From positions 496,001 to 560,000 of the forward strand of contig NZ_RJUO01000002.1 of assembly GCF_003752365.1 (NCBI RefSeq): DNA of 64,000 nucleotides. Reading direction: 5' to 3'. Below, piece by piece: positions 5,487-63,200 of this stretch. Made by a program: the position numbers and the translations under genes. The stretch is from Frondihabitans sp. PhB188 (GTDB lineage Bacteria; Actinomycetota; Actinomycetes; Actinomycetales; Microbacteriaceae). The notes beneath the pieces are model-generated. The model ran no database searches. It was not told the origin of the DNA and saw only the letters and a list, made by a program, of their open reading frames with translations. Each line of letters starts with the position of its first letter. Position 1 is the stretch's first letter.

Positions 5487-5564
5487 GCACCCAGCGTGGC
5501 GGCCCGGCCACCCCGAGTTCCTGCGCCAGGTCTCTTCTGTGGAGAAGCGCCCCCTGTGGACGAC

Positions 5565-5625
5565 GGTGAGGAGTCGCTCGTTGTCGGCGACCGGGGTCGA
5601 GCAGGACAACGAGCGACTCCTCACC
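5565..5625. terminator. Perfect 21-bp inverted repeat
   Basis: The arm at 5565-5585 pairs without mismatch with 5605-5625 around a 19-base loop. The core is GTCGCTCGTTGTC facing GACAACGAGCGAC. The related core CTCGTTGTCG appears in hairpins at 15.3 and 18.6 kb. It sits downstream of the amidase gene (stop at 5664) and upstream of the nuclease-like gene, so it is a likely terminator for the amidase or a repeat element. Confidence 0.6.
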
Positions 5626-5633
5626 CGCCGGCG

Positions 5634-5660
5634 CCGCAGGCGCAGGCGCAGGCGCAGGCG
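5634..5660. repeat. (GCAGGC)n microsatellite
   Basis: About four copies of the hexamer CAGGCG lie directly after the amidase stop codon. Copy number could vary by slippage. No coding meaning is seen. Confidence 0.6.
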
Positions 5661-5663
5661 CTG

Positions 5664-6533
5664 CTACAGAGACGCTGGGACCTTGTAGAACCAGACGTCG
5701 GCACCGGGGTGGTCCTTGGTGATGGCGGTGTCGAGGTCGCGGTAGTCGTAGTCGAGGTTGTGGCCGACGAGCGAGATCTTGCTGCCTGCGATCGCGCTGA
5801 CGATCATGACGTGGTCGGGCACGCCGTTGTCGTTCCAGTCGAAGTACGCCAGGTCGCCGATGGCGAGCTTCGAGCGCTCGGTCGCGGCCAGGCGGGTGAA
5901 GCCGAGCGACGGCGTCGTCGCGAGGTACGTGTCGAACGACGGAGCGTAGCCCCAGGACTCGCTGTGGCCGGTCGAGTTGTAGTACCAGGAGTCGTTCTGG
6001 GCGAGGCCGCGCGCGGCGAGGGCCTGGCTCACGAAGTTCTGGCAGTCGCCGCCGACGGCGTTGAAGTTGGCGAACGACGCGTTGTACGCCTTCGCCGACC
6101 AGTGCTGGAACGCGTACTGCATCTCTCTGTCGACACCGTCGGTCACCTTGTAGTCGTACGAGAGCCCCGACGACGAGGCGCCGGTGACTGTGACATCGAC
6201 CGTCGACGGCTGGTAGTCGACGGCGTGCGGCACGACGGCGGTGACCGAGGTGGCGGTGGCCTTGACCGAGGTGGCGGCGACGGTGCCGAACTTCACGGCG
6301 CTGACGTCGGCGAGCGACGTGCCCGAGATGGTGACGGTCGAGCCGCCGACGAGACCGCCGGAGGTCGCCGACAGCGATGACGCGGTGGGAGCCGCCGGGG
6401 TCGACGATTTCAGGGGCGTCTGCTCTCCGAGCGTCGCGGGAGGCATGACGCCGGACGTGCCGGAGGTGCATCCTGCTAGCAGGGCGGTCGCGACCACGGC
6501 CGTGGTCAGAACAGGGACGAACCTTTTACGCAT
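5664..6533 (-). CDS. Secreted lipoprotein with TIG domain and amidase domain
   Basis: This 289-residue precursor has a lipoprotein signal peptide: basic MRKR, a hydrophobic stretch, and lipobox LLAGC with Cys22 as the lipid-carrying residue. Residues about 48-130 form an IPT/TIG immunoglobulin-like domain (SATSGGLVGGSTVTISGT). Residues 131-285 match the putative amidase family (Amidase_6): GGDCQNFVSQ with Cys164 as likely nucleophile and GVPDHVMIV with the likely catalytic His near 254. Such proteins are cysteine hydrolases thought to act on peptide or cell-wall amides outside the membrane. The gene is divergent from the drug exporter across a 170-base region containing an operator-like palindrome. 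Confidence 0.88.
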   Translation of the reverse strand: MRKRFVPVLTTAVVATALLAGCTSGTSGVMPPATLGEQTPLKSSTPAAPTASSLSATSGGLVGGSTVTISGTSLADVSAVKFGTVAATSVKATATSVTAVVPHAVDYQPSTVDVTVTGASSSGLSYDYKVTDGVDREMQYAFQHWSAKAYNASFANFNAVGGDCQNFVSQALAARGLAQNDSWYYNSTGHSESWGYAPSFDTYLATTPSLGFTRLAATERSKLAIGDLAYFDWNDNGVPDHVMIVSAIAGSKISLVGHNLDYDYRDLDTAITKDHPGADVWFYKVPASL

Positions 6534-6635
6534 GCACCAAAACCATTCGAGTCAGACCGGGCGGCGGCCACACTAACACTGCGACCTCGGCAGCTCGGGA
6601 GAACGGCTTAGGCAAATTCGTGACACTCGTGTAAT

Positions 6636-8560: not shown

Positions 8561-8622
8561 GTCGGCGGACTCGCGTCCGGGCAGAGCCCAGGGCGCAGGA
8601 ACTCGAGGTGGTCACCTCGGCA

Positions 8623-9282: not shown

Positions 9283-9414
9283 TGGCGGCCTAGGCCGTCA
9301 CGAAGTGGCGGCCTAGGAGCCGTGAGATGCAAGGCGGAGGCGGCCCGGTAATAGCGGAGCTATGCCGGGCCACCGACAACGCAGCAGATTGCGGCCCCTA
9401 GGCCGTCACGAAGT
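9283..9414. repeat. 18-bp direct repeats bracketing a hairpin next to the methyltransferase
   Basis: CCTAGGCCGTCACGAAGT occurs at 9289-9306 and again at 9397-9414, where it is the 3' end of the methyltransferase gene including its stop. The 90 bases between hold a dyad, GGCCCGG/CCGGGCC with partly paired TAATAGC/GCTATG, at 9341-9371. A second short repeat, GGCGGCCTAGG, occurs at 9284 and 9307. The arrangement looks like insertion of a small non-coding element that duplicated its target, or remains of an attachment site. No integrase is seen. Confidence 0.55.
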
Positions 9415-10252
9415 CGGCGTCGGGAAGGCGTCGGCGCATCACGGCGACGGCCTCCGTGTTGCTGTCGACGAGCACGAAGTGGCGGCCCAGCTCGGCCGCT
9501 GCCGCACCCGTCGTGCCGGATCCTGCGAAGAAGTCGAGCACCCAGTCGCCCTCGCGCGTCGAGGCCTGGATGATGCGCCGCAGGATGCCCAGCGGCTTCT
9601 GCGTCGGGTAGCCGGTCTTCTCCTTGCCGGTCGGCGACACGATCGTGTGCCACCAGACGTCGGTGGGCAGCTTGCCCCGCGCGGCCTTCTCGGGCGTGAC
9701 CAGGCCCGGCGCCATGTACGGCTCGCGGTCGACGGCGCTCGAGTCGAAGTGGTACTTCGCCGGGTCTTTCACGTAGACGAGGATCGTGTCGTGCTTGGTC
9801 GGCCAGTGCGACTTGCTCTTGGCGCCGTAGTCGTAGGCCCAGATGATCTCGTTCAGGAAGGACGCGCGGCCGAACAGAGCGTCGAGCAGCACCTTCGCGT
9901 AGTGCGCCTCGCGGTAGTCGAGGTGGAGGTAGAGGGTGCCGTCGTCCGCGAGCAGCCGCCATGCTTCGGCGAGCCGCGGCTCGAGGAACGACCAGTAGTC
10001 GTCGAACCGGTCGTCGTACTTCATCAGGTCGCCGCGGATCCGCTCGTACTGCACGCCCTTGAAGCCGGCCACGGCTCCGGTGCGCGAGCCCCGCACCGAG
10101 TGCGTCTCGTGCCGGGTCTGGCTGCGGCCGGTGTTGAACGGCGGGTCGAGGTAGACGACTGTGAACGCCCCGTCGGGGAGGGTCGGCAGGAACTCGAGGT
10201 TGTCGCCGTGGACGACACGGTCACGCGACTCCGTGGTCCAGTCTGCGGGCAT
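9398..10252 (-). CDS. Orphan DNA methyltransferase, beta-class (N4/N6 type)
   Basis: This protein of about 284 residues has motif IV (YLDPPFN, residues about 33-39) before motif I (DFFAGSGTTG, near 250), the order of beta-class amino-methyltransferases. It should methylate adenine-N6 or cytosine-N4 using S-adenosylmethionine. The target site cannot be read from sequence. No restriction endonuclease or specificity gene lies nearby, so it is an orphan methylase, perhaps regulatory in the manner of CcrM. ATG at 10252 gives a normal N-terminus, but its AGGAGG directly touches the ATG, which is unusual; GTG at 10291 is the alternative. The 3' end is duplicated 108 bases further on. Confidence 0.88.
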   Translation of the reverse strand: MPADWTTESRDRVVHGDNLEFLPTLPDGAFTVVYLDPPFNTGRSQTRHETHSVRGSRTGAVAGFKGVQYERIRGDLMKYDDRFDDYWSFLEPRLAEAWRLLADDGTLYLHLDYREAHYAKVLLDALFGRASFLNEIIWAYDYGAKSKSHWPTKHDTILVYVKDPAKYHFDSSAVDREPYMAPGLVTPEKAARGKLPTDVWWHTIVSPTGKEKTGYPTQKPLGILRRIIQASTREGDWVLDFFAGSGTTGAAAAELGRHFVLVDSNTEAVAVMRRRLPDADFVTA

Positions 10253-12590: not shown

Positions 12591-13349
12591 GTGACACTCG
12601 CCCAGCAGCTGACCCGATTCGAGAGCCTTCTCAGTGGAATCGACTCGGCCCTCCTCGCCTCCCTCGCCCCCGGTCTCGACGATTCCGGTGTCGAGGCGCT
12701 CCGTCGCGCCCTCGCGCCGACCGAGCTGAGCGCCCAGGTCGAGGTGCTGTACCGGTGGCGCAGCGGCGGGCCCCTGCCGCTGTTCTTCGGGCGGGCGATG
12801 GCCACGCCGAAGCGGCTGGCGGGCGCGACGGCCGCCGCGGAAGAGGGGGCGGGCCTCGTCGACGGGATTCCCGTGTTCGTCGGGGGTGACGGCGGGGCGG
12901 TTGCCGATCTCGAGTTCCTGCTCTCCGATCTCTGCGACTCGGCCGAGGCCGCCGGCGACTCGCCGTATGAGCGGCGCGCAGCCCTGACCGGCTCCGCACC
13001 GGTGCGGCCCTGCACGACGACCGCCGCCGACGCCGCCGAGACCCGCACGATCGCCGACCTCGTCGAGCAGAGCCACGAGGCAGAGGCCGTCGGCACCGTC
13101 GGCGGCCGCATCGTCGACGCGTGGGATTCTGCGGGATACGTGGAGTTCCGGCTGGCCGACGCCTCGCACACTCTCGTGCTCGGCATCCGCGACCCCGATC
13201 ACGAGTCGCTGCCCGCGCTCGGCCAGGAGCTGCTGATGACCGTGCGCATCCGCAAGGGCGCGACGGCCATCACGGAGCCGATCGACCCGAGGCGGCCGTC
13301 GGTGCTCGGCGCTGTGCCCGCGGACTACCTCTCGCACTCGGCTTTCTAG
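12591..13349 (+). CDS. Protein of unknown function
   Basis: This protein of about 252 residues is not recognised with certainty. The segment LSAQVEVLYRWRSGGPLPLFFG recalls the start of SMI1/KNR4-like domains, where LYRWxNG is typical, but the rest cannot be matched by eye. It has no signal peptide or membrane helix. The C-terminal half (VGTVGGRIVDAWDSAGYVEF) looks beta-rich. GTG at 12591 follows AGAGG closely; GTG at 12567 would add eight residues. It converges with the lipoate ligase gene: its stop overlaps that gene's last bases (13346-13349). Confidence 0.7.
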   Translation: MTLAQQLTRFESLLSGIDSALLASLAPGLDDSGVEALRRALAPTELSAQVEVLYRWRSGGPLPLFFGRAMATPKRLAGATAAAEEGAGLVDGIPVFVGGDGGAVADLEFLLSDLCDSAEAAGDSPYERRAALTGSAPVRPCTTTAADAAETRTIADLVEQSHEAEAVGTVGGRIVDAWDSAGYVEFRLADASHTLVLGIRDPDHESLPALGQELLMTVRIRKGATAITEPIDPRRPSVLGAVPADYLSHSAF

Positions 13350-14405: not shown

Positions 14406-15266
14406 CTACGCAGGAACTGCGGAACGAGCGTCGAGCCACCCGATCAGGTCGACCGTGACCTCGTCCCTGTTGGTCTCGTTGAACACCTCGTGCCGCGCCC
14501 CGTCGTAGACGATGAGCTCGACGTCGGTGAAGCCCGACCGGTCCCGGTACGCCGCCACGAGCTTCTCCGCGCTGGTGCGGCCGCCGAGCGGGTCGTCGTC
14601 GCCGACCATCACGAGCAGCGGCAGGTCGCGCTTCGGGTGCCGGGTAGGGCGGCCGTAGAGGCGGAGCGCGTCGCGGAGGCCGAAGAGCTTCAGGACGGTG
14701 GCTGGTATGGCCAGCGGGTCGACGGCCATCGCGGCGGCGACGGCGGGGTCGCGGCTCAGCCACTCGAACCCCGTGGTGCCGAGGTGCGCGTGGCGCTTGT
14801 TGAGGTCGCCGCCGTTCATCGTCAGGGGCGTGCGATACGCGGTGCCGGTGAGGACGGCGCCGTCGTAGTCGTCGGCGTGCGCGTCGACGATGATCTGAGC
14901 CATCAGCGAGCCCCACGAGTGCCCGAGCAGAACGAGCGGGAGCCCGGGGGCGTCGGCGCGGGCCGTCCGGGTCACATCGCGCACGGCCTCGACGGTGGCG
15001 GGGAGGCCGCCGGGCCCGAGGTGGCCGAGCATCGGGCTGCCCTCGCCCCACTGGCCGATGCCCGTGCGGCCGTGTCCGCGGTGGTCGTCGGCGTAGACGG
15101 TGTAGCCGGCGGCGGCCAGTGCCTCGGCGAGCCGCTCGTACCGGAGCGCGTATTCGCCGACGCCGTGCGCGAGCTGGACGATGCCGCGCGGCGCGGAGGC
15201 CGCCCACACGTAGTAGTGGATGACGACGCCGTGGGCGTCCGTGAGCGTGCGGTCGTCGCGAGCCAT
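14406..15266 (-). CDS. Alpha/beta hydrolase, monoacylglycerol-lipase type
   Basis: This 286-residue serine hydrolase has its nucleophile in GHSWGS (near residue 103), the acid in MVGDDDPLGG and the histidine in YDGARHEVFNE near the C-terminus. QLAHGVGEYALRYERLA and DDHRGHGRTG are typical of the monoacylglycerol lipase/lysophospholipase group (Hydrolase_4). It probably cleaves monoglycerides or related esters. ATG at 15266 gives the usual MARDDRTL N-terminus. The last codons (GCA GTT CCT GCG TAG) are poorly used ones and contain the GCAGGAACT motif. The gene precedes lplA on the same strand and the two may be co-transcribed. Confidence 0.87.
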   Translation of the reverse strand: MARDDRTLTDAHGVVIHYYVWAASAPRGIVQLAHGVGEYALRYERLAEALAAAGYTVYADDHRGHGRTGIGQWGEGSPMLGHLGPGGLPATVEAVRDVTRTARADAPGLPLVLLGHSWGSLMAQIIVDAHADDYDGAVLTGTAYRTPLTMNGGDLNKRHAHLGTTGFEWLSRDPAVAAAMAVDPLAIPATVLKLFGLRDALRLYGRPTRHPKRDLPLLVMVGDDDPLGGRTSAEKLVAAYRDRSGFTDVELIVYDGARHEVFNETNRDEVTVDLIGWLDARSAVPA

Positions 15267-15399: not shown

Positions 15400-15993
15400 T
15401 CAGTCGTCAGAGCCGTGTCCGCCGTGTCCGCCGTGGTCGTCACCGGCGTCGTGGCCGGAGCCGTCGTCCGAGCCGCCGTGCCTGCCGCTGCTCGAGCCGT
15501 CGCGGTCTCCACCGTGGTCGTCGCCCGCGTCGTGCGAGGGGCCGTCATCGCTGACGGCGGCGACCGGGGTGGGAGCCGTCGAGGCGACCGGGGCCGGCGC
15601 GGTGGCGTGGTGGCCGGAGTCGTCGGCGGCCGGCGCGGTCGTCGGGGCCGGCGTGGTGGAGGCGACGGGCGCAGGAACTGCGACGACGTCATCGGCCCCA
15701 CGCCCGTGGCGCACGTGGCCCGGAGCGTCGTCGGCCCCGCGTCCGTGGCGCGCGTGACCGGCGGCGTCATCGGCGCCGTGGCCGTGGCGCGCGTGCGGCT
15801 TCGCGGTGGGCGTGGTGCTCGGCGACCCGGTCGGCGTGGCCGATGCCGTGGGGGCGGCGGGGCTGGCGGTGGTCGTGGCGACCGGCGTGGCGGTGTCGTC
15901 GGCGCCCTGCGAGGCGAAGGCGATGCCGGCGGATCCGAGCACGAGCGCCGCGGCGGCGGTGCCGGTGATGACGAGCTTCTTGGTGCGGTTCAT
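15400..15993 (-). CDS. Secreted His/Asp-rich repeat protein linked to the two-component system
   Basis: This 197-residue precursor has a clear signal peptide (MNRTKKLVITGTAAAALVLG, cleavage near AFA-SQ at about 29). A Thr/Pro/Ala linker follows. Three near-repeats based on HARHGRGADDAAGH occupy about residues 72-105, then Pro/Ala-rich sequence and a tail of DDHGGHGG-type units. It is low-complexity, rich in His and Asp, and lacks Cys. Metal binding or wall association is plausible but unproven. GGAGG lies seven bases before the ATG. TTCAG direct repeats about 60 bases upstream match those in front of the response regulator gene, so it is a likely target of that regulator. Confidence 0.75.
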   Translation of the reverse strand: MNRTKKLVITGTAAAALVLGSAGIAFASQGADDTATPVATTTASPAAPTASATPTGSPSTTPTAKPHARHGHGADDAAGHARHGRGADDAPGHVRHGRGADDVVAVPAPVASTTPAPTTAPAADDSGHHATAPAPVASTAPTPVAAVSDDGPSHDAGDDHGGDRDGSSSGRHGGSDDGSGHDAGDDHGGHGGHGSDD

Positions 15994-21331: not shown

Positions 21332-21336
21332 CGGGG

Positions 21337-21380
21337 GCGCAGGAACTCGGCGAACGGCGGCGGGCCGCCAGTTCCTGCGC
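21337..21380. terminator. GCGCAGGAACT inverted pair after the MFS gene
   Basis: GCGCAGGAACT (21337-21347) faces AGTTCCTGCGC (21370-21380) as a perfect 11-bp stem. The intervening sequence contains a second stem, GGCGG/CCGCC. It lies six bases after the MFS stop and before the GH114 gene. It is a likely terminator built from two copies of the recurring motif. Confidence 0.65.
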
Positions 21381-21435
21381 GCCTGCCCGATCGGGGGCCT
21401 GCCTCGTGGCGTCGGCGCCACCTAGGCTGGGGCGC

Positions 21436-23262: not shown

Positions 23263-24188
23263 GAGCGCTCACCGACCCAGGTCGGCGCGGCGGAGGTCGG
23301 GAAGTAGCGCTGGCGGATCGCCTCCGATGCGGCCGACGTCGCGGCCTGCACGGCGTCCATGTGCGTCGGCAGGTCGTCGAGGATCTCGGCGATCGGCTTG
23401 TACTCGAGCTCGGAGCGCATCTGTCCGAGGATACGGACCCCGGCATCCGACGAGGCCGTCCGCGCCGTGTTGGGCTCGACCTCGCGCAGGCACGCTTCCG
23501 CCCGCGAGATCGCGAACAGCACGCTCCGCGGGAAGAGGCGATCCAGAAGCAGGAACTCCGCCGCGTTGCGTGCGCTCGGCACCCCGCGGTACGTGCGGAG
23601 GTACGCCTCGTACGCCCCGACCGACCGCAGGATCGTGGTCCACGACGGGCCCGACGCCTCGGTCAGCGTGCGCGTCGCCAGCAGGCGGGCAGTCATGTCG
23701 GCGCGCTCGATCGACCGGCCGAGGGTGAAGAACTGCCAGACCTCGTCGCGGCTCGTCGCCGACTCGATGATGCCGACGGCCAGCGCCGAGCGCTCGCGCA
23801 CCCAGGCGAAGAACTCGTGCACCTTGTCGCTCGACACCTTGCGCGGCATCCGGGCACGGGTCGTGTTGAGGCACTCCCAGAGCTCGGTCGACACGATCTC
23901 GCGGGCCCGCCGGGCGTTCTCGCGCGCCGCTCCGAGCGAGTAGGCGATCGAAGCCGGGTTGTGGCGGTCGACGGCGAGCATCGACAGCACGTCGGCCCGA
24001 GTGATCTCGACGCCCTCGGGCGCCTCCGACCCCATGACCGAGAGGAGCGACCGGCAGGCGGCGTCCTCCTCGATCCAGGGGTCTTCGAGGAGCAGCTGGA
24101 GGTGCACGTCGAGGATGCGGGCGGTGCCGTCAGCCCTCTCGATGTACCGGCCGATCCAGAAGAGGCTCTCGGCGATCCGGCTCAGCAT
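23259..24188 (-). CDS. Alpha-E domain protein (DUF403)
   Basis: This 309-residue all-helical protein of the alpha-E family begins with the family signature MLSRIAESLFWIGRYIERAD. ARENARRAREIVSTELWECLN and FFTLGRSIERADMTARLL follow. Its activity is unknown; it is nearly always encoded between a permuted ATP-grasp protein and a transglutaminase, as here. The start overlaps the end of the ATP-grasp gene (24182-24188) and the stop overlaps the transglutaminase start. The three proteins are therefore made together. Confidence 0.93.
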   Translation of the reverse strand: MLSRIAESLFWIGRYIERADGTARILDVHLQLLLEDPWIEEDAACRSLLSVMGSEAPEGVEITRADVLSMLAVDRHNPASIAYSLGAARENARRAREIVSTELWECLNTTRARMPRKVSSDKVHEFFAWVRERSALAVGIIESATSRDEVWQFFTLGRSIERADMTARLLATRTLTEASGPSWTTILRSVGAYEAYLRTYRGVPSARNAAEFLLLDRLFPRSVLFAISRAEACLREVEPNTARTASSDAGVRILGQMRSELEYKPIAEILDDLPTHMDAVQAATSAASEAIRQRYFPTSAAPTWVGERS

Positions 24189-25950: not shown

Positions 25951-25990
25951 GCAGGAACTCGCGGCTCGCCGGCGGGCTGCCCGTTCCTGC
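25951..25990. terminator. GCAGGAAC inverted pair upstream of the ATP-grasp operon
   Basis: GCAGGAAC at 25951-25958 faces GTTCCTGC at 25983-25990, with extra G/C pairing between. The 213-base region from 25865 to 26077 holds this repeat and no gene. It follows the stop of the small minus-strand gene (26078) and may end its transcription. Confidence 0.5.
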
Positions 25991-28320: not shown

Positions 28321-29549
28321 GACGTCACCACGCAGCGTCCGGCGAGGTGCTCGCGCACGTCGTCGGCGAAGACGGTGAGCGCGCTCAGGACCATGCGCGA
28401 CGTTCCGTCGGGGTGGTGGCACGAGCCGCGCCCGGCGACCAGCCGCGCCAGCCGGTCGACCTCGCCGGGGAGCCACTCGGCCCGGTCGCGGGCAGCGAGG
28501 CGCCGCAGCACGTCGGCGAGCCGCGGCAGGCCGTTGGCGCACGGGCCGCACTGGCGGGCGGACTGGCCGGCCAGGTACGCCGCGATCTCTGCGGCGGCGT
28601 CGAGGCCGCATCGGTGCGTGCCGAGGGCCATGAGGATTCCGGCGCCGGGGGTTGCGCCGAAGGGCGCGAGTTCCTGCATCGACAACCGGGTGGAGAGCGC
28701 CGACGCCGGGACCCAGGCGCCGTGGTAGCCGCCGACCAGCACGGCTCGGAGGCCGTCGACGGAGGCTCCCGCGGCGCCCAGCGCGTCGGCGAGCGGCACG
28801 CCGCCGGGCACCTCGAAGACGGCCGGCACCGGGAGGTCGCCGCTGAGCGAGACGAGGCGCGTGCCGGGGTCGTCGGGGGTTCCCGCCTGGCGAAACCAGG
28901 TGGCCCCGAACCGGGCGAGCAGCGCCACGTGGGCGAGGGTCTCGACGTTCTGCACGAGGGTCGGGGCTCCGCGCAGGCCCGCATCGGTCAGCCGGGCGGG
29001 GTGGTCGCGCGGGATCGCGGGCCCGCCGCCGACCGCGCTGACCACGGCCGACGCCTCGCCTGATAGGAACGTGTCACGGGCGGCGACCAGACGCACACGG
29101 CCCGCGTCGGGACGCTCGGCGATGGCCCGCGCCACCGGCTCGAACGACGAGGCCGGTGCGTAGAGCACGACGTCGCCGGCGCGGATCGTGGCCGCTGCCA
29201 GGAGGAGCCCGTCGAGCACGAGATGCGGGGCGCTGCGCAGGAGAGTGGCGTCCTTCCTGCTGAGCGGCTCGCCCTCGGCGCCGTTCGCGATGACGACCGC
29301 GGGTCCGCGCTTGGAGGGCACCGACTCGGCCGCGGCGATGAGCTTGCGCCAGGTCGGGAACGCGGCGCCGCCCCGCCCCGTCAGGCCGGAGTCATCGAGC
29401 TCGGCGATCAGATGGCCCTCGTCGAAGGCGGCGGGCATCGGGCCGAACGCGGCGAGGTGCGACGCGAGGTCGGGTGCCGGTGCCGCGAACAGGCGTCGTA
29501 CCCCGGTGGGGCCGGCGACGCTGGTGCGGATGGGCTGGGTCATGGTCAT
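28317..29549 (-). CDS. NuoF-like NADH dehydrogenase subunit (stand-alone)
   Basis: This 410-residue homologue of complex I subunit F has GRGGAAFPTWRK (residues about 58-69) and ANGAEGEPLSRKD for FMN and NADH. An SLBB region and an iron-sulfur domain with ARQCGPCANGL and GSCHHPDG follow. No other complex I genes are present. It lies in a coupled operon with a ferric-reductase-like membrane protein upstream (ATGA overlap 29546-29549) and a ferredoxin downstream. It probably takes electrons from NADH, or gives them back, for this small redox chain. The fit to complex I itself is excluded by context. Confidence 0.9.
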   Translation of the reverse strand: MTMTQPIRTSVAGPTGVRRLFAAPAPDLASHLAAFGPMPAAFDEGHLIAELDDSGLTGRGGAAFPTWRKLIAAAESVPSKRGPAVVIANGAEGEPLSRKDATLLRSAPHLVLDGLLLAAATIRAGDVVLYAPASSFEPVARAIAERPDAGRVRLVAARDTFLSGEASAVVSAVGGGPAIPRDHPARLTDAGLRGAPTLVQNVETLAHVALLARFGATWFRQAGTPDDPGTRLVSLSGDLPVPAVFEVPGGVPLADALGAAGASVDGLRAVLVGGYHGAWVPASALSTRLSMQELAPFGATPGAGILMALGTHRCGLDAAAEIAAYLAGQSARQCGPCANGLPRLADVLRRLAARDRAEWLPGEVDRLARLVAGRGSCHHPDGTSRMVLSALTVFADDVREHLAGRCVVTS

Positions 29550-33739: not shown

Positions 33740-33886
33740 GTTCTTCTCTCTGATCTCGGCGGAGGGTGCCGAGAGAAACCTAGGAAGCCCGGATAACGAA
33801 CAGGGGTCACGAAGGTGAACAACCTGCGCAGCCTGCAAAACGGCAGAGGGCGCAGGAACTGCCGCCGCCCCTCCTGAACCGGCAGG

Positions 33887-40317: not shown

Positions 40318-41222
40318 AGGTTGTGCACCGGGTTCGCCGGCTCGCGCCAGCCCAGCACGGCCTCGACCATGCGCATGGCGTCGACGGACTCGCGCACGGC
40401 GTGCATCCGCACAATCCGGGCTCCGAGCATCGCGCACACGGTCGCTGCGGCGATCGAGCCGGCCAGCCGCTCGGGCTTCTCTCGCTCGAGCGACTCGCCG
40501 ATGAAGTCCTTGTTCGACACGGCGGCCAGCACCGGCAGGCCCAGCGTCGTGAACTCCGCCAGCCGGCGCGTCAGCTCGAGGGTCTGCACCGTGCTCTTGT
40601 TGAGGTCGTGCCCGGGGTCGACGATCAGGCGCTCCTCGGGGATCCCCCGCTCGAGAGCGAAGTCGACACGCCCGCGCAGGAACTCCGCCACCTCTCCGCC
40701 GATGTCGTCGTAGTGCGGGCGGGGCACCGGCTGCCGCGGCGCAGCCAGCGAGTGCGTGACGACGAGGGTGGCGTCGCTGGTCGCGACCACGTCGGCGAGG
40801 CGCGGGTCGGCGAGGCCGGTGGTGTCGTTGATGACGCTGGCGCCCGCCGCGATCGCCGCCTCGGCGACCTCCGGTCGGAACGTGTCGACCGAGATCACGA
40901 CATCCGACTGCTGTGCGAGCGCCTCCACCACCGGCACGACGCGCCCCGCCTCCTCGACTGCTGAGAGCTCGGGCCCCGGAGCGAACTTGACGCCGCCGAT
41001 GTCGACCCAGTCGGCGCCGGCCGAGGCGGCGGCGACCGCCGCCTCGACGGCACGGTCGAGCGCGAATGTGGCGCCCTGGTCGTAGAACGAGTCGGGCGTG
41101 CGGTTGACGATGGCCATGACGGCGATCTGGCGGTCGAAGTCGAAGGTACGGCGGCCGATGCGGCGGACCGGGGTCGAGATCGCCGGCAGCCGGAACCCGG
41201 GCGCGGCCTCGAGCGAGGTCAC
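40314..41222 (-). CDS. Dihydropteroate synthase homologue, FolP2-like
   Basis: This protein of about 302 residues has a 35-residue N-terminal extension and then the TIM-barrel pterin-binding domain: MAIVNRTPDSFYDQGATF, WVDIGGVKFAPG, SVDTFRPEVA, INDTTG, LIVDPGHDLNKS and SNKDFIGESL. NRTPDSFYD and SNKDFIGE differ from the canonical NVTPDSFSDGG and SRKRFIG motifs and resemble mycobacterial FolP2, reported not to act as a normal dihydropteroate synthase. GTG at 41222 overlaps the folE stop. Whether it makes dihydropteroate is open. Confidence 0.85.
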   Translation of the reverse strand: MTSLEAAPGFRLPAISTPVRRIGRRTFDFDRQIAVMAIVNRTPDSFYDQGATFALDRAVEAAVAAASAGADWVDIGGVKFAPGPELSAVEEAGRVVPVVEALAQQSDVVISVDTFRPEVAEAAIAAGASVINDTTGLADPRLADVVATSDATLVVTHSLAAPRQPVPRPHYDDIGGEVAEFLRGRVDFALERGIPEERLIVDPGHDLNKSTVQTLELTRRLAEFTTLGLPVLAAVSNKDFIGESLEREKPERLAGSIAAATVCAMLGARIVRMHAVRESVDAMRMVEAVLGWREPANPVHNL

Positions 41223-44500: not shown

Positions 44501-44544
44501 TGAGCGCTCACATCACCAATTTGTTCTAACTCGCAACAATTGGT
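44501..44544. promoter_or_regulatory. Palindromes upstream of the alditol oxidase gene
   Basis: TGAGCGCTCA (44501-44510) is a perfect 10-bp palindrome typical of LacI or GntR operators. ACCAATTTGTT (from 44515) and AACAATTGGT (to 44544) form a near-perfect dyad around a nine-base centre. They lie 20-63 bases before the oxidase ATG. The second also touches the stop of the next gene and could act as its terminator. Confidence 0.5.
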
Positions 44545-45404
44545 CAGCCCCGAGGGGTGAACGCCGCGTAGACGCTCGCGATGTCGTCGCCGCCGTGGCC
44601 GTCACCCGATGCCGCCGCGTACGTCGCGGCGAGGGCATCGAGCACGCGCGGCTCGACTCCGGAGCCCCGTGCCGCCTCGCCGATCAGGCTGAGGTCTTTG
44701 CGCAGGCCGTCGAGTGCGAACGACGGCGGGAACTCCCCCGACAGCATCGACTCGCCCTTGACGTGGGCGTAGGGCGTATCGGTCGCACCGCCCTCGATCG
44801 CGCGCAGGAACTGCCCCCCGTCGAGACCCAGGGCCTCCGCCAGCGCGATCGACTGCGCGATCCCCGCCGTGACCGTCGCGACCCAGGCGTTGGCGGCGAG
44901 CTTCAGCGCCGTGCCGTTGCCGACCCGGTCGCCGGCCACGACCGTCTTCGCACCCATGGCGTCGAGCACCGGCTGCACCCTCTCGAGCAGCGCCACGTCG
45001 CCCGCCGCCAGCATCACGAGCTTGCCCGTCTCGGCCGGCTGCTTCGTGCCGAGCATCATGGCCTCGACGAGCGACACGCCCGCGTCGTCGGCCGCGGCGA
45101 CCACTCGGTTCGTGCCGTCGAGGCCGATCGTCGACGCCTGCACCCAGACGGCGTCGTCCGGGACCGCGCCGGACGCCTGAGCGAGCACGCTCAGCACGCT
45201 GTCCGCATCGAACAGGATCGACAGGATCACGTCGGCGCTCGCCACGGCCTCCTCCGGGGACGCCGCCACGGTCGCGCCCTCATCGGCCAGCGGCGCCGCC
45301 TTCTCGGCCGACCGGTTCCAGACGGTGACGTCGAACCCCTCTCTCAGGAGCGTGCGAGCGACGCCGAGACCCATGATGCCGAGACCGAGAACAGTAACCT
45401 TCAT
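44544..45404 (-). CDS. NAD(P)-dependent beta-hydroxyacid dehydrogenase (3-hydroxyisobutyrate dehydrogenase family)
   Basis: This 286-residue enzyme has an N-terminal Rossmann motif VLGLGIMGLGVARTLLREG followed by VWNRS (Arg suggests NADP). It also has DVILSILFDADSV, a NGTALKLAANAW segment bearing the catalytic Lys, and a C-terminal LRKDLSLIGEAA. Such enzymes oxidise beta-hydroxyacids such as 3-hydroxyisobutyrate, tartronate semialdehyde or glyoxylate-type compounds. It lies upstream of the alditol oxidase on the same strand, so a sugar-alcohol breakdown role is possible but unproven. Confidence 0.9.
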   Translation of the reverse strand: MKVTVLGLGIMGLGVARTLLREGFDVTVWNRSAEKAAPLADEGATVAASPEEAVASADVILSILFDADSVLSVLAQASGAVPDDAVWVQASTIGLDGTNRVVAAADDAGVSLVEAMMLGTKQPAETGKLVMLAAGDVALLERVQPVLDAMGAKTVVAGDRVGNGTALKLAANAWVATVTAGIAQSIALAEALGLDGGQFLRAIEGGATDTPYAHVKGESMLSGEFPPSFALDGLRKDLSLIGEAARGSGVEPRVLDALAATYAAASGDGHGGDDIASVYAAFTPRG

Positions 45405-49709: not shown

Positions 49710-49795
49710 CCGTCCATCCTCCCTGAAATCCCCGCGGGCGCAGGGCAGTGCCTGGCAGGAACTCGAGGCGGTCGCCAGAAAGACAGGCGCACCCC

Positions 49796-52700
49796 TCACC
49801 GCCCCGCCGTCGTCGTGAGCACGGACGACCCGTCGGGCCTCCTCCGCACCTCGATCCGGTCGGCGATCCGCTGCTTGAGCTCGTCGACGTGGCTCACGAT
49901 GCCGACGACGCGGCCACCCGCCGACAGCTTGCCGAGCTCGGTCATCACGGAGTCGAGCGTCTCGGGGTCGAGCGTGCCGAACCCCTCGTCGACGAAGAGC
50001 GTGCCGAGGTCGATGCCGCCGGCCTCGGACTTCACCACGTCGGCGAGCCCGAGCGCGAGGCTGAGGGAGGCGTAGAACGTCTCGCCGCCGCTGAAGCTCT
50101 TGGGGTCGCGGGTGGTGTCGGTCGCGTTGTCGCGGATCGCCAGCGCGAGGCCGGTCTTGCGGGTGCGGGCGCCCGCTTCGCGCTCGGCCCCTTCGAGCTG
50201 GTAGCGACCGCTCGACATCACGCTGAGGCGGGCGTTGGCCGCGTCGAGCACGTCGTCGAACCGTCGGAGCAGCACGTAGGTCCCGAGCGTCACCCCGCGC
50301 AGGTTCTCGCGTCCGGCGGCGCTGGCGATGTCGGCCATCCGCACGATCGCCCGGGTCTCGCCGGCGACGGCGGCCTGCGCGGAGACGGCGGCGTCGACGG
50401 CCTGCAGCGCCGTCGTGGCCCGCGTCGCCAGGTCGCTCGCCCTGGCGGCCGCATCGACGGCCTCGGCCAGGGCGGTCGTGGCGGCGTCGGCGCGCTCGGT
50501 GGCGGCCTCGAGGCCGGGCTCCTCGTCGCCGGTGAGCGCCGCGATGTCGGCGGCGGCGAGCCCTGCGGCGACGATCGCGGTGGCGGACTCGTGATCAGCG
50601 ACCACCCGCGCGAACTCGGCCTCCCGGGCGGAGCCGAGGACGGCCGCCGCCGCCTCATCGGCGCTCGGGAACGGCGACGCCTCGACGGCTCCCGCCAGTT
50701 CGGCCGCACGCGCTTCGACGGTCTCGGCGGCGCTGTCACGGGTACGGCGGGCGGCGATTCGGCTAGCGAGGGCGCGCTCGTCGGCGTCGAGGGTGGACAC
50801 GAGGTCGCGGCAGCTCTGGGCGCGGCCGTCGAGCGCCTCCGCGACGCGAGCCGTGTCGGCGTCGATCGCCTCGGCGTCCGCCTCGATTCGGGCCGCCCGC
50901 CCCTGGGCCGCCTCGCGGGCGATGCCGAGGGCCGTGGCCATCGCCGTCGTCTCATCGTCGAACGCGACCAGCGCGGTCTCGGCGGTGGCGAGCTCGCCGC
51001 GCGCCGACTCGAGCTCGGCCAGGCGGACGGTCGCCGCCCGAAGCCGCTCGGCGAGCTGGTCGCCGGTCGCATCGCCGACCTCGGCGCTCGCGTCGTCGAG
51101 GAGCGCGCGACGCGCGCTCTCCTCGCCGCGCACCTCACGAAGCCGGGCCTCGGCCTGAGCCCTTGCGTCGGCGGCCTCCTCGATCCGCTCGTCGGACGGG
51201 TGCTCGTCGAGCATCCCGGCCGGGTGCGGATGCTCGACCGCTCCGCAGACCATGCAGGGCTCCCCCGGAATGAGATCGCGTGCGAGCTCCCCGGCCATGC
51301 CCGAGATACGGCGGAGGCGGAGCTCGGCCTCGGCCGCCACGGCCTCCCCCGCCGCCGTGACGGCCAGTGCGACGCGGGCACCGATCGACTCGACCTGCGC
51401 CGCGAGGTCGTCGCGACGACGCAGTCGGGCGAGGGCGACCTCGGCGGCGGCGGACTCGGAGCGCGCCTTCTCGACGTCGCCGACGCGCCGACGCAGGTCG
51501 TCGAGGGCGGCGACCCGCTCGACCCGTGTCGCAGCCCGCTCGGCCAGCGCCGACTCGGTCGTCTCGATGTCGGCGCGCCCCGTCTGCAGCGTCTGTCGCG
51601 ACTGGCTGAGGGCCGACCGGCGAGCGTCGAGCCCCGACTCGACGCGCGCGACGTCGCGAAGCGTGGCGATCTCGGCGAGGAGCGCGTCGCGGCGGAGGAC
51701 GAGGTCACGCAACGAGGACGGCCCCGCGTCAGGAGAAGCGACAGACGCAGCGGAAGCCGACACTGGAGGGGAAGCCGCGAGGGGCGGAGCCGATGTGCCG
51801 GACGCAGGCTCGACGGCCGCGAGAGCGGCAGCAGCCGCCTCGAGCTCGGCCCGAGAACGGGCGAGTGCGGCAGCGGGTGCCACGACGAGGGCGGCCGCGC
51901 GGGCCGACGCGAGGCGAGCCCGCGCGGTGTCGGCAGCGGCGGTGGCGGCCTCGAGTTCCTGCCGCTGGGCCAGAAGACGACTGCGGCGCGCCAGCGCGTC
52001 GACCAGCCGGACCGCCTCGACACGGCGGGCCTCGGCCGCGGCCGCGACGGCTCGACGCGCTTCTCGGGCGTCGACCCCCGAGGAAGCGGCCGCAGTGAAG
52101 CGCGCGACGGCATCGGGTGCGTCGACGACCTCGACCCCGTCGTCGCCGGTGGCGCCGCGAAGGCCCGCGAGCGCCTGCGCGACAGCTGTCTCGGCGGCGG
52201 TCACGGCCGCGTGGGCGTCGCGCCGGGCGATGACGAGCTCGGCGGTGGTGCGGTCGTAGATCTCGGTGCCGAACAGCGACTGCAGCACGAGGCGCCGCTC
52301 TTCTCCGGTCGACGCCAGGAAGCGCGCGAACTCGCCCTGCGGCAGCACGATCGTCTGGAGAAACTGCTCCTTGGTCAGTCCGACGATCCGGACGATCTCG
52401 GAGCCGACCTCCTGCGCGCGCGACGACACCGGCTCGCCGCCCTGCGAGTCGGGCGTGGCCAGCCGCGTCAGGGTGACCGACGCGTTGGCGCGCGTGAAGC
52501 CCTCGCCGCGCGCCTTGGGGCGCTCCCACGCGGGGGTGCGTCGGATGCGGTGGATGCCGACCGGCGTCTCGAAGACGAGCTCGACGAACGGCTCGACGTC
52601 GCGGGCGGCGTGATGGCTGTGGAGGCGGTCGTCGCTCGAGGCCGCGCCGGCCAGCGAGCCGTAGAGCGCGAAGACGATCGCGTCGATGACGGTGGACTTG

Positions 52701-55991: not shown

Positions 55992-56027
55992 TGCGCAGGA
56001 ACTGCCCCTCGCCGTCCCTCCGACCCC

Positions 56028-57521
56028 TCAGGCACCCACGGCCGCGAACGGCACCACCGTGCCCGCCGGCAGAGCCTTCCGTAGCGCCTTGACGAACGCC
56101 TTTCCCCGCTTCCACTCGCCGGCGTGGAAGGCGTCCCATCGGCCGTCGGCGTCGACCAGTACGAGCGTTCCCTCGGGCCGCTCCCCCACGATCAGCAGGT
56201 CGTCGAACCGCACCGCCGCGACGACGTCGTCCTCGCGGAACAGCACCGCATCGGCGGCGATGATCGCCTCGACGCCCTCGGCGCCAGCCGACTTCCTCCC
56301 CGACCAGACCGGTGCGCCGGCCTTGACCGCCTTCTTCCACGTCTTCTCGGTCGACTCCTGCAGCAGGTCGAACGAGTCGATCGGCAGCTTCAGCGACATG
56401 GCGACCTTCGCGAGGTCGGCGGCGCCGTCGAACGCGACGAGCAGCGACGGGAGCGCCGCCGAGACGGCCGCCGCCACCGACTCCGAGGTGAAGGCCGAGG
56501 CCGTCGCGATGCTCTCCTCGCGCGTCGCCGTCCCGAAGCTGCGGAGCGCGGCGCCGTTCGCGTCGCGGAGGTGGGCGGCCACCGATTCCGGGTCGCTCGC
56601 CGCGGCCAGACGCGCGTGCTCCACCGCCAGAGTGAGGACCGCCGCGGAGACGCCCTCGTCGGCGATGTCCTGGAGGCCGTGGACCAGCGCCCTCACCCCC
56701 TCGGGGATGTCGGCGAGGGCCGGCTCGAACGAGTAGGTCAGGGCCGACTCCGTGTCGGAGACCCGCGTGAGGTCGAAGTCGACCGAGTAGGCGAGGCCGG
56801 CCTCGACGCGGAGGCGGTCGCGGAGGGCGAGGTGGACGGCGGTCCCGAGTTCCTGCGCCCCGGTGCTGGGGAGGACGATCGACGCACCGATGCCCGCGTT
56901 CTCTGACGCGATCAGGGTGGGCGTACCGGGGCGGGCGACAGCCGTGCCGCGGAACGGCTTGGGGCCCGACGGGAGGTCGAGGTCGAAGGAGGCCGTGATG
57001 GGCTTGGTGAGGGCGACGGCCGCGTTCTCGGCAGTGAGCCAGGTGGCGGCCCAGCGTGAGACGTCCTTCTTGCCGACCCCCGAGGCGCCGGGCTCGCCGA
57101 AGCCGGCGCGGCCGAGTTCTCCGAGGCCGTAGCGGAAGGTGCGCATGTCGACGCCGGGGGAGGCGACGCTGCCGGGATCCTCGAGCTCGAGCAGGCGCTT
57201 GGCCCGGCTCAGCTCGAACGACGAGACGCTGCCGAGGGCCAGGACGGCGTCCGAGAGCGTCTCGAAGAAGCGGAGCACCTGGGCTGTCGTGCCGGAGGCG
57301 CTGAACGTCAGCGCGCCCTCGTCGAGCGCCGCGTCGGCGGGGATGAGGGCAGGCTCCATCGCCGTCTCGATCAGGTGCAGGATCAGGTGGCTGATGCCGC
57401 GGTGAGCCACCGGCTCGTCGCGGGTGCCGACGCCGAAGGCGATCGATCCGTAGCACCGCCCGGGGACGCTGGCGGAGCGGGTCAGGATTCCGTTGGCCGT
57501 GGTCGACGTGACGATCTGCAT
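56028..57521 (-). CDS. Peptidase M16-like protein without the catalytic Glu
   Basis: This 497-residue protein follows the M16 fold pattern: SIAFGVGTRDEPVAHRGISHLILHLIETAM at the place of the zinc motif, LRDRLRVEAGLAYSVDFDLT in the second half-domain, and a C-terminal extra region. The M16 motif HxxEH is HLILH here (His45, His49), so Leu48 replaces the catalytic Glu. It is therefore probably inactive as a protease, like the non-catalytic subunits of paired M16 enzymes. No active partner is adjacent. ATG at 57521 starts MQIVTSTTANG, normal for M16 proteins. Confidence 0.8.
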   Translation of the reverse strand: MQIVTSTTANGILTRSASVPGRCYGSIAFGVGTRDEPVAHRGISHLILHLIETAMEPALIPADAALDEGALTFSASGTTAQVLRFFETLSDAVLALGSVSSFELSRAKRLLELEDPGSVASPGVDMRTFRYGLGELGRAGFGEPGASGVGKKDVSRWAATWLTAENAAVALTKPITASFDLDLPSGPKPFRGTAVARPGTPTLIASENAGIGASIVLPSTGAQELGTAVHLALRDRLRVEAGLAYSVDFDLTRVSDTESALTYSFEPALADIPEGVRALVHGLQDIADEGVSAAVLTLAVEHARLAAASDPESVAAHLRDANGAALRSFGTATREESIATASAFTSESVAAAVSAALPSLLVAFDGAADLAKVAMSLKLPIDSFDLLQESTEKTWKKAVKAGAPVWSGRKSAGAEGVEAIIAADAVLFREDDVVAAVRFDDLLIVGERPEGTLVLVDADGRWDAFHAGEWKRGKAFVKALRKALPAGTVVPFAAVGA

Positions 57522-59850: not shown

Positions 59851-60117
59851 GGTTCTTCCTGGGTTCTCGATGACGCGAGGATTCACCCGGGCGCCATTGG
59901 CCAGGGACCGTTCACATATGTGATTCGTCGCAGCGGATCGCTGCGATTCCGGCCCCGGAGACTGTCCTGGTGCCTGGAGCAGGCACAGCAGGAACACAAA
60001 CCCATCCGCGCAACTAGCACGGTGTCTCGAGCCGACCAACCAACGCTACACGCCTCACCCCCGAATAGCGAGCGCAGGAACTCGCCGCCGCCCCGAGGTA
60101 GAACCGAGTCCTCCGCC
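59851..60117 (-). promoter_or_regulatory. Upstream region of the DEAD-box gene
   Basis: This part of the 402-base gene-free stretch 59851-60252 contains the 12-bp palindrome TCACATATGTGA (59912-59923). It also contains a 7-bp stem with a 3-base loop, CGCAGCG-GAT-CGCTGCG (59929-59945), and a GCAGGAACT copy (60074-60082). A long leader with structure would fit a temperature- or self-regulated RNA helicase, but no known riboswitch is recognised. Confidence 0.4.
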
Positions 60118-60176
60118 GCGAGATGGCCCTCGCCGTCGGGCGGCGCCGGCCGACCCGACGACGAGGGCCATCTCGC
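60118..60176 (-). terminator. 23-bp hairpin after the RND exporter
   Basis: Bases 60118-60140 pair with 60154-60176 with one mismatch (arms containing GAGATGGCCCTCG and CGAGGGCCATCTC) around a GC-rich loop. It lies about 77 bases beyond the exporter stop and is the likely terminator before the DEAD-box promoter. Confidence 0.7.
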
Positions 60177-60192
60177 GCCGCGCTGCAGGCCG

Positions 60193-60252
60193 CGCGCCGA
60201 GCGCCGAGCGCGGAGCGCAGAGCGCGGAGCGCAGAGCGCAGAGCGCAGAGCG
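60193..60252. repeat. GAGCGCA-type tandem repeat directly after the RND exporter stop
   Basis: About eight imperfect copies of GAGCGCA/GAGCGCG fill the 60 bases next to the exporter stop at 60253. No gene is present. It is a simple-sequence tract prone to slippage. Confidence 0.65.
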
Positions 60253-63200
60253 CTACGCGGCGACCGCCCCGCGCCGCGCCGCGCGCCGCTCCAGCCACCC
60301 GTAGATCAGGCCGTACAGCGTCGGCAGCACGATCAGCGTCAGCACGGTCGACGACACCAGGCCGCCGATCACGACGAGCGCGAGGGGCTGCGAGATGAAC
60401 GAGCCGTGCCCGGTGAGACCTATCGCCAGCGGGGTGAGGGCGAAGATGGTCGCGAGCGCCGTCATCAGGATGGGCCGCAGACGCCGCGACGTTCCTTCGA
60501 TCAGAGCTTCTCGCACGTTCAGGCCACGGCGGCGGTACTGGTTGACCAGATCGATGAGCACGATGGCGTTCGTGACGACGATTCCGACGAGCATCAGCAC
60601 TCCGATGATGGAGGGAACGCCGAGCGGCACGTTGGCGATCAGCTGGAGCAGGATGGCGCCGGTCGCGGCGAACGGGATCGACACCAGGAGAAGCACCGGC
60701 TGCAGCAGGCTCTTGAACGCCGCGACCATGACGATGTAGACGATCAGGATGGCGATGAGGATCGCGATGAGCAGGTCGGCGAACGCCGTGCCCTGCTGCG
60801 AGGTGACGCCGCCGATCTCGGCGCTCGCGCCCTTCGGCAGGTCGACCCCGTCGAGCGCCTTGGTGACCTGCGAGTTCGCGGCGGAGAGGTCGTCGGAGGC
60901 CGGCGTGATCGTGACGGTGGCGCTCCGGACGGCGTTCTCGGTGGTGATCGAGGTCGGTCCGTCGGTCTGCGAGACCGTCGCGATCGACGACAGCGGAACC
61001 GTCCCGGTGGGGGTCGGGATCTTCACCGACTTGAGCGCCGACAGCGTCGCCGGTGCCTTCGTCGGGATCGTGTAGATGTCGACCGTCGTCGCGTCGATCT
61101 CGAGCGATCCGACCTGGAAGGGCTGCACCGCCTGCGAGACGATGCCGCCGACCTCGAGCTCGGTCAGGCCGTAGGTCGCCGCCTTCGCGCGGTCGACTTG
61201 GATGCCGATGAGCGGCTGGGCCGCCGACAGGTTGGTCGAGGCCCCGGCGGTGTCGGGCAGGCCCTTCATCGCCTTCAGCACCCGGTCGGACGCCGTGGAC
61301 AGGGTGGTGGCGTCGTTGGACGTGATGTCCACCTCGATGTCGTTGCTCGATCCGAGCCCCGACGACGCCTCGACCGAGATGTCGCCGGCATCGGAGAGCG
61401 CGCCCAGCTTGTTTCGCACGGTGGCGGTCAGTGCGTCCTGGTCGGCGTTCTCGTCGGTGGTGATCTGGTAGGTCACGGTGCTGCCGCCGGTGCCGCCGAA
61501 GAACGCGGCCAGCGAGTTGCCGCTGGACCCGATGGTGAGCTGCACCGTGTCGACGGCATCGATGGAGTCGAGTGCGCTCTCGACCTTCTCCGCCTGCTTC
61601 GACTGGACGGCGAGGCTGGACGCCGCAGGGAGTTCCTGCGTCACCGTCAGGGTGTTCTGGCCGCTCGACCCGAGGAAGTTCGTCGTCAGGAGGGTCGCGG
61701 CGCCTCCCGAGCCGGCCAGGATCACGACGGCGGCGAGGATCGTCAGCCACGGGTGGCGGAGGGTGCCCAGCAGGATCGGGCGGTACGCGCGGTGCAGCCG
61801 ATCGGTCGGGGCCGCATCGCTCGCCGGGGCGCGGTCGTGTTTGTGCTCCTTCGGCGGGCGCATGAACCAGTAGCCCAGCACGGGCACGATCGTCAGCGAT
61901 ACGAACAGCGACGCCACGAGGGCGATGACCACCGTCAGGGCGAACGGGCGGAACAGCTCGCCGGTGACGTCCTGCACGAAGGCCAGCGGCAGGAAGACCA
62001 CGACGGTCGTGATGGTGGAGGCGGTGACCGCGCCCGCGACCTCGCGCACGGCCTCGGTGATCGCCTGGAGCCGCGGCACCCCCGGCACGAGGTGCCGCTT
62101 GATGTTCTCGGTCACGACGATCGAGTCGTCGACTACGCGCCCGATCGCGATCGTCAGGGCGCCGAGGGTCAGGATGTTGAGCGTGTAGTTCGAGGCGAGC
62201 AGGCCGATGAAGGTGATGAGGACGCTGGTCGGGATGCTGATCGCGGTCACGATCGTCGAACGGAACGACAGCAGGAAGATCAGGATCACGATCACCGCGA
62301 AGGCGAGCCCCAGCAGCCCCTCGGTGGAGAGGCTCTCGATCGACTGCGTGATGAACGGAGCCTGGTCGAAGACGACCTCGATCTTCACGCCGTCTGAGAG
62401 GTTCGACTCGAGCGAGGAGATCTGATCGCGGATCGTGCTCGACACGTCGACGGTGTTGGCCTCGAGGGTCTTGGTCACGGCGATCGTCAGGGCGTCCTTG
62501 CCGTTCACGCGCGAGATGGAGGTGATCGGCGAGCTGGTGAGCTTCACGGTGGCCACGTCGGCGATGTCGGTCGACTGCAGGGCGCCGGTGAGGGCGTTCT
62601 TCGCGCCGACGAGCGGGAGCTTCTGCACCTGCGCCACCGAGGTGAGCCGCTGGCCCGCCTGGATCGAGAGCGTCTTGCCGTTCTGCGTGATCTGGCCGCC
62701 CGGCACGAGAGTTCCGTTGTCGTCGAGGGCGTCCTTGATGGCGGAGATCGTCAGGCCGACCGCGGCGAGCTTCGCCTGGTCGGGCTTGATCGTCAAGCGC
62801 TGCCCGGCGTCGCCGTAGACGGACGCCTGCCGCACCCCGTCGAGCTTCTGAAGGGCAGGGACGGTGATGTTGGTCAGGTCGTCGACGAGCTTCTGCTTGT
62901 CGGCGGGGCCGCCCGTGACGGCGAGCTGCACGACCGGGAGGTCGTCGAGGCTCCCCGACACGACCTGCGTGTTCACGCTGTCGGGCAGGGTGACCGTGTC
63001 GATGGCCTGCTGGATCTTCTCCTCGGTGGCCGGGAGGTCGGTGCCGTAGTCGAACTCGGCCGAGATGTTGCTCTCGGAGGTCTGCGACGTCGCGGTCGTC
63101 GACTTGAGGCCCGGAATCACCTGGATGGCCTTCTCGATGGGCCCCGAGACGCTGTCGTTCACCACCTGGGGCGAGGCGCCCGGGTACGACGACACGATCG

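Follow-up and report, generated by a model that had tools for sequence, protein, structure and literature searches.

A nine-base word in Frondihabitans with the genomic hallmarks of a DNA uptake sequence, apparently one dialect of a system found across much of the Microbacteriaceae

The 9-base word GCAGGAACT occurs 23 times, 14 times on the forward strand and nine times on the reverse strand, in a 64-kb stretch of the genome of Frondihabitans sp. PhB188 (the stretch is called the window below, and the genome G000). On genomic evidence this word behaves like a DNA uptake sequence, and it shares the genomic hallmarks of such sequences that we tested. We consider it probable (at about 0.72) that much of the family Microbacteriaceae uses an uptake sequence of which GCAGGAACT is the G000 dialect, and the dialect-forming system to which it would belong is apparently the first in a Gram-positive family. 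The reading rests on a genome-wide excess of the word, its genic and intergenic pattern, hairpins, dialects in related species, and the presence of pilus and competence genes, and from these we infer an uptake preference, the identity of its receptor and a feedback.

Shuffling the window by dinucleotides gave a mean of 0.18 copies of GCAGGAACT (maximum 2 in 100 shuffles), and a codon-preserving null gave a mean of 3.5 (maximum 9 in 500 shuffles). A preliminary description of the window had called the word over-represented and listed 23 sites; both statements are borne out, with every site present on the strand given and a single start moved by one base, to 14410 from 14409. By our own gene calls nine copies are noncoding, six encode EFL or QFL and eight are genic with disfavoured codons, which is the same division as first proposed. 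The last eight comprise five xQEL sites, which use GAA (9% of Glu codons), and three xVPA sites, which use GTT (2%) and CCT (4%) plus either GCA (5%) or ACA (2%).

Across the 3.79 Mb genome there are 932 copies (477 forward, 455 reverse), or 246 per Mb, compared with 53 copies (29 forward, 24 reverse) of the reversed word used as a control. The extended form of the word is GCGCAGGAACT[C/G], and the genome has 551 copies of the 11-base GCGCAGGAACT as against two of its reversed control. A count against a codon-aware null, as the preliminary description had proposed, was made on an 844-kb sample consisting of the window and 39 further stretches of 20 kb, with our own gene calls. Synonymous codons were shuffled within each gene and intergenic DNA was shuffled by dinucleotides, 30 times over. 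The sample contained 223 copies, and the null gave 25.8 (maximum 32). There were 155 genic copies (null 25.2), 66 intergenic copies (null 0.6) and two lying across a gene edge. Much of the null expectation arises because of the EFL-type frame, where 47 copies were seen and 21.1 expected; other genic frames were far above the null, with 53 copies versus 3.7 for xQEL, 28 versus 0 for xVPA and 20 versus 0.03 for AGT. Copies in such frames need codons that are rare within their families (GAA 9%, GTT 2%, CCT 4%, GCA 5%, ACT 3%, GGA 8%). The dinucleotide, reversed-word and codon-synonym nulls together exclude chance or codon usage as the cause of the excess.

The conserved unit is short. Around the core of 123 sites in G000, information above 0.2 bits is found only at positions -2 to +10, about 13 positions, followed by a weak C-rich trail of up to 0.16 bits that extends to approximately +30; no AT-rich block was seen around the core of these sites. 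Changing the word by one base brings the counts near the null unless it is the last base that changes (GCAGGAACG, 70 versus 13; GCAGGAACC, 27 versus 6); a further variant, GCAGGATCT, is also in excess (26 versus 9). So is a second, weaker word in the 844-kb sample, GCAGGATC (189 versus 52.5).

Intergenic copies tend to follow genes. For 52 of them there is a neighbouring stop codon upstream, at a distance of no more than 50 bases in 36 cases, and the intergenic density falls from 0.95 per kb where genes converge to 0.61 in tandem gaps and 0.45 where genes diverge. When the 8-base form was used to find close pairs (at most 70 bases apart) in the 844-kb sample, all 10 were inverted and none direct, nine of the 10 were intergenic, and eight faced each other as GCAGGAAC...GTTCCTGC. 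Five pairs were folded, with z scores of -10.3, -8.3, -5.7, -4.0 and -1.9, and the two best folds have 22-23 uninterrupted base pairs. The last two values belong to the window pairs at 21339/21370 and 25951/25983, which the preliminary description had correctly picked out as facing each other, the second being the weaker. The inverted pairs look like terminators bearing GCAGGAACT and are candidate terminators. Inverted pairs elsewhere are sporadic: G068, a genome taken up below, has five intergenic inverted pairs, along with 10 inverted and two direct genic pairs, and G003, another species of the genus, has one inverted pair.

We compared 148 genomes of relatives and found no G000-like excess of GCAGGAACT in any of them, including six other species of the genus, which have 34-61 copies each. 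Instead, those species have sister words, GCAGGATC, GCAGGAGC or GCAGGATGC, and the sequence GCAGGA is common to the genus dialects. Each species was sampled over 60-100 kb, and brackets give the number expected under the codon-aware null: G003 has 32 copies of GCAGGATGC (2.5) and 25 of GCAGGAGCC (2.3); G001 has 20 of GCAGGATCG (3.1), 17 of GCAGGATCC (2.4) and 22 of GCAGGAGCC (4.5); G006 has 27 of GCAGGATCG (3.4); and G005 has 18 of GCAGGATCG (3.1) and 16 of GCAGGATCC (2.5). Intergenic copies support the dialects of G003 (GCAGGATGC 9 (0.0); GCAGGAGC 10 (0.6)), G001 (GCAGGAGC 7 (0.4)) and G005 (GCAGGATC 5 (0.4)), with weak intergenic support in G006 (3 (0.3)) and G002 (3 (0.5)) and no intergenic dialect copies in the 3.3 kb available for G004. 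These intergenic counts shift with training of the gene caller, because the gene calls differ slightly before and after retraining; for G005 the GCAGGATC count is 5 or 10. The dialects differ between sister species whose rpoC genes are 92-96% identical. The preliminary description had suggested examining conservation in related genomes; the exact word is not conserved, and it is as sister words that the motif recurs.

In G002, both comEC (C1:2981383-2982173) and rpoC (C1:1206492-1210369) appear split into two frames. We had considered the split comEC as a cause of the weak word in this species and dropped it, as the like condition of rpoC points to frameshifts in the assembly.

Beyond the genus, a family word, CGGATGCCG, shares GGATGCC with the G003 dialect. 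Thirteen of the 83 other Microbacteriaceae genera have more than 1,000 copies, and the whole-genome maxima (control counts in brackets) are 2,536 (72), 2,375 (96) and 2,320 (106). Among named members of the family, a group to which Agromyces and Cryobacterium belong, there are 1,751 copies (85) in Microbacterium hydrocarbonoxydans, 1,470 (101) in M. jejuense, 1,035 (131) in Agromyces cavernae, 982 (100) in Cryobacterium algoritolerans, 587 (141) in Microbacteriaceae VKM Ac-2854, 359 (115) in Leifsonia virtsii, 180 (57) in Clavibacter lycopersici, 83 (51) in M. mitrae and 59 (36) in Leucobacter; the outgroups Modestobacter and Cellulosimicrobium have 194 (194) and 146 (104). Expressed as a motif ratio, that is, the CGGATGCCG count over the control count with 5 added to each, 59 genomes from other families of the order show no excess (median 1.3, maximum 2.8). 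G068 carries approximately 690 copies per Mb, and 400 kb of it contain 284 copies versus 34 by the codon-aware null, at equal density within and between genes. Six other pilus-bearing genera were sampled, and forms of CGGATGCC were among the leading words of five (G007, G008, G011, G013 and, more weakly, G014). Of pilus-bearing genomes poor in or without the family word, G052 has 15 copies of GCAGGATC versus 2.8 in 40 kb, and G040 (samples L234 and L235) has the GC-rich GGAGGCGCGG (19 versus 2.6) among its leading words, possibly a further dialect. Named and unnamed genera are intermixed in an RpoC tree of 29 rows, built without G002 or an outgroup family, in which 10 of 26 inner branches are well supported. 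Separately, overlapping words of the CAACAAGCAA type in G009 (samples L173-L175; 12 versus 0) are probably a local tandem repeat.

G000 has pilus and competence genes. A type IVa pilus locus adjoins rpoC and encodes PilB with an MshEN domain, PilT scoring above the curated cut-off, PilC, pilins, PilD and PilM; the sequence examined ends within pilM. The pilins with an N-methyl motif comprise one major and two minor proteins, the latter labeled PilV- and PilW-like, the PilV match being below the model cut-off, and a 603-residue protein without a family match is labeled PilX-like from its position only. A ComEA-like gene (SLBB and helix-hairpin-helix) adjoins comEC. Identity among species of the genus is 92-95% for PilB and 31-53% for the PilV-, PilW- and PilX-like proteins. 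Searches of PDB sequences with three alignments gave weak matches only, a type IV pilin (E 0.047) being one of them. ComEC is found in 142 of the 149 genomes, G000 included, and was therefore rejected as a discriminating gene; being nearly universal, it fails to explain which genomes bear the word.

PilT does vary. It is present in 43 of the 83 other genera and missing above cut-off in 40, and the median motif ratio is 6.9 in the former and 2.7 in the latter (p=7e-5). For the 66 genera with genomes of at least 2.4 Mb the medians are 7.6 and 3.1 (p=0.012). Neither p-value is corrected for phylogeny. We regard the link between pilus and word as only moderate.

We propose that word-bearing DNA would be bound by a component of the competence pilus, for which a fast-evolving minor pilin of the type IVa pilus is the most likely candidate, that PilT would then retract the pilus, that ComEA and ComEC would pass one strand inward, and that homologous recombination would swap out the resident DNA. 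Because word-bearing DNA would be taken up preferentially, the word would build up over time on both strands and settle where it is least harmful, in permissive stretches of protein and in terminators. If the preference of the receptor shifted, the word would shift with it, giving rise to dialects.

Such systems have been described elsewhere. According to PMC12616744, Neisseriaceae and Pasteurellaceae are the only families in which sequence-specific DNA uptake is known. The DNA uptake sequences of Neisseriaceae have dialects with a conserved core, inverted pairs that serve as terminators, and the receptor ComP (PMC3630211, PMC3868556). Like them, the words described here are short and contiguous, reach hundreds to thousands of copies, form dialects with a conserved inner core and inverted terminator-like pairs, and in G000 occur with a type IV pilus; they differ in sequence and in having a Gram-positive host, are known from genomes alone, have no identified ComP homologue, and are abundant in two genomes without PilT or prepilins. 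The uptake signal sequences of Pasteurellaceae have a 9-base core and occur in two dialects at 200-800 copies per Mb, with inverted repeats that serve as terminators and a predicted receptor, ComN/PpdA (PMC12616744). The core length, dialects, inverted repeats and densities of G000 and G068 are alike, but the AT-rich blocks that lie beyond the Pasteurellaceae core are not seen around GCAGGAACT. Among actinobacteria, Micrococcus luteus also has comEA and comEC, but its transformation depends on a Tad/Flp pilus, and the accessible text makes no mention of an uptake word (PMC6370729). Natural transformation has been demonstrated in Rhodoluna and Aurantimicrobium, both of which are Microbacteriaceae, and the authors point to comEC (PMC11577799); 17 family genomes smaller than 2.4 Mb, which may or may not include these genera, hold only 7-235 copies of CGGATGCCG. 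A literature search judged by titles and the beginnings of abstracts, with thin coverage of subscription papers and preprints, turned up no uptake word described from Actinobacteria.

Several observations weigh against the uptake reading. Two dialects are weak (GCAGGATGC in G002, 14 versus 3.0; GCAGGATCC in G004, 7 versus 1.1), GCAGGATC lacks intergenic support in G001 (1 versus 0.3), and 60 kb of the pilus-bearing G021 contained no such word. In 12 alignments of nine sites with sister species, neither GCAGGAACT nor a dialect form was kept in any; sites turn over, and selection on single sites is not apparent; letter-by-letter replacement of conserved sites by the sister dialect was not seen either. 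Spacing, which the preliminary description had suggested testing, is near random (45 gaps below 1 kb, 43 expected). The major pilin is also divergent within the genus (46-59% identical), which makes the fast evolution of the minor pilins weak evidence. When the genera of at least 2.4 Mb are split at a ratio of 5, the difference is not significant (27/41 versus 11/25, p=0.07), and across all 83 genera the ratio is at least 5 in 12 of the 40 PilT-negative and below 4 in 10 of the 43 PilT-positive ones. Finally, G062 and G065 have 1,779 and 1,707 copies of CGGATGCCG and keep ComEC, yet neither has PilT above the family cut-off or a prepilin (PilB was not searched by itself). Either these two lost the pilus recently or something other than the pilus reads the word. 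With a one-off excess of 1.98, G062 falls within the 0.73-2.56 spanned by five genomes that have the pilus, which does not show decay of the word following loss of the pilus.

Those two genomes are a reason to consider that the word is an uptake sequence with a different reader in place of the type IVa pilus, for example ComEA or a Tad/Flp pilus of the kind used by M. luteus (PMC6370729). A third T2SSE-type ATPase in G000, on C5 and apart from the pilus locus, could belong to such a reader. The higher motif ratio in PilT-positive genera and the failure of the nearly universal ComEC to sort word-bearing genomes both speak against this alternative, and we consider it unlikely. The small number of strongly informative positions, the absence of polarity and the differences between close sister species argue against a structural or chromosome-organising motif unrelated to uptake, whether a terminator family, a site for a nucleoid or segregation protein or the relic of a short mobile repeat. 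Such a motif could account for the intergenic copies enriched after stops and in hairpins, but most copies (155 of 223) are genic, and we regard it as very unlikely. A REP-like mobile repeat was rejected on the same grounds, a conserved unit of only about 13 positions and mostly genic copies, and the spread of a small repeat, one option in the preliminary description, is disfavoured by the sharp limits of the information.

Another of its options was Chi, a recombination signal read by a nuclease of the RecBCD, AddAB or AdnAB type. Species-specific words are known for Chi, and a Chi-like signal would accumulate in genes and could differ by species, in keeping with the mostly genic copies, the thousands of copies in some genomes and the two rich genomes without PilT or prepilins. 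Chi sites are, however, strand-biased with replication. Genic copies in the 844-kb sample are even with respect to gene strand (79 sense, 76 antisense), and the halves of the G068 contig have strand counts of 83/68 and 70/63. In a polarity test that is independent of the origin, where the larger strand count is summed over stretches, the larger strand held 174/284 copies (61%) in G068 and 140/223 (63%) in G000. Simulation at 50:50 gave 60% and 66%, respectively, and at 75:25 gave 75% and 77%; values as low as those observed did not occur in any of 2,000 simulations at 75:25, and both genomes fit 50:50. This lack of strand bias led us to reject polarity of the Chi or FtsK type, and Chi is not known to form inverted hairpin pairs behind stop codons. 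A Chi-like signal thus appears quite unlikely. The uptake-sequence option of the preliminary description is left with strong circumstantial support from genome data, namely the sharp core, balanced strands, rare-codon copies, hairpin pairs, dialects, and a type IV pilus with comEA and comEC.

The copies in the window are listed in Table 1.

Table 1. Copies of GCAGGAACT and the arms of inverted pairs in the window (window positions; gene strands in brackets)
Feature	Position	Strand	Context
GCAGGAACT copy	5516..5524	-	noncoding (own gene calls)
GCAGGAACT copy	8595..8603	+	intergenic, shortly 3' of gene ending 8560
GCAGGAACT copy	10186..10194	+	within gene 9398-10252(-), EFLP
GCAGGAACT copy	12913..12921	-	within gene 12591-13349(+), EFLL
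GCAGGAACT copy	14410..14418	+	end of gene 14406-15266(-), AVPA, rare codons GCA GTT CCT
GCAGGAACT copy	15671..15679	+	within gene 15400-15993(-), AVPA, rare codons
GCAGGAACT copy, left arm of intergenic inverted pair	21339..21347	+	directly after stop of gene 19979-21331(+)
GCAGGAACT copy, right arm of 21339 pair	21370..21378	-	21328-21392 folds at -42.7 kcal/mol, z -4.0
GCAGGAACT copy	23549..23557	+	within gene 23259-24188(-), EFLL
GCAGGAACT copy, left arm of intergenic inverted pair	25951..25959	+	
Right arm of 25951 pair, 8-base form GCAGGAAC	25983..25990	-	fold z -1.9
GCAGGAACT copy	28669..28677	-	within gene 28317-29549(-), MQEL, rare GAA
GCAGGAACT copy	30631..30639	+	within gene 30105-31091(-), TVPA, rare codons
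GCAGGAACT copy	33852..33860	+	intergenic, 33739 to 33887
GCAGGAACT copy	35710..35718	-	within gene 35388-36500(+), EFLR
GCAGGAACT copy	40013..40021	-	within gene 39565-40317(-), AQEL, rare GAA
GCAGGAACT copy	40676..40684	+	within gene 40314-41222(-), EFLR
GCAGGAACT copy	44804..44812	+	within gene 44544-45404(-), QFLR
GCAGGAACT copy	49755..49763	+	intergenic, 49709 to 49796
GCAGGAACT copy	51954..51962	-	within SbcC-like gene 49796-52819(-), RQEL, rare GAA
GCAGGAACT copy	55995..56003	+	between convergent genes ending 55967 and 56028
GCAGGAACT copy	56848..56856	-	within gene 56028-57521(-), AQEL, rare GAA
GCAGGAACT copy	60074..60082	+	intergenic, 59850 to 60253
GCAGGAACT copy	61631..61639	-	within AcrB-like gene 60253-63339(-), TQEL, rare GAA

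Other features were seen along the way. The word CTGGAGTCTC occurs six times in the window versus 0.06 expected, and the 844-kb sample contains C/G runs (CCCCCCCCC, 102 versus 26), the palindrome TTCACGTGAA (12 versus 0.07) and AAAGCCGCAA (13 versus 0.2), with TTCACGTGAA and AAAGCCGCAA perhaps being local repeats that occur in clusters. A RecQ-family helicase is encoded at 46265-48319(-) of the window; its best listed relatives, at approximately 72-75% identity and in a list that may omit the record of G000 itself, are dispersed over several actinobacterial families, which suggests that the gene is patchy or transferred. ARAGORN called a tRNA-Ser(tga) at 37481-37578(+) inside a solute-binding protein gene at 36501-38132(-), possibly a false call.

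On balance we lean toward a third, independently evolved and family-wide uptake system, the first in a Gram-positive phylum, with a receptor that works without an outer membrane, which Gram-positive bacteria of this family lack, and with dialects that, in switching at 92-96% rpoC identity, may act as a barrier keeping recombination within species. If this is true, uptake sequences would have arisen a third time, in a large environmental family of Gram-positive bacteria that spans many genera and several dialects. The essentials of such systems (pilus, receptor and feedback) could then be separated from Gram-negative peculiarities, and the family would offer many natural replicates for testing co-evolution of receptor and word. 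Natural competence would become predictable from sequence alone in, for example, Microbacterium, Agromyces and Cryobacterium.

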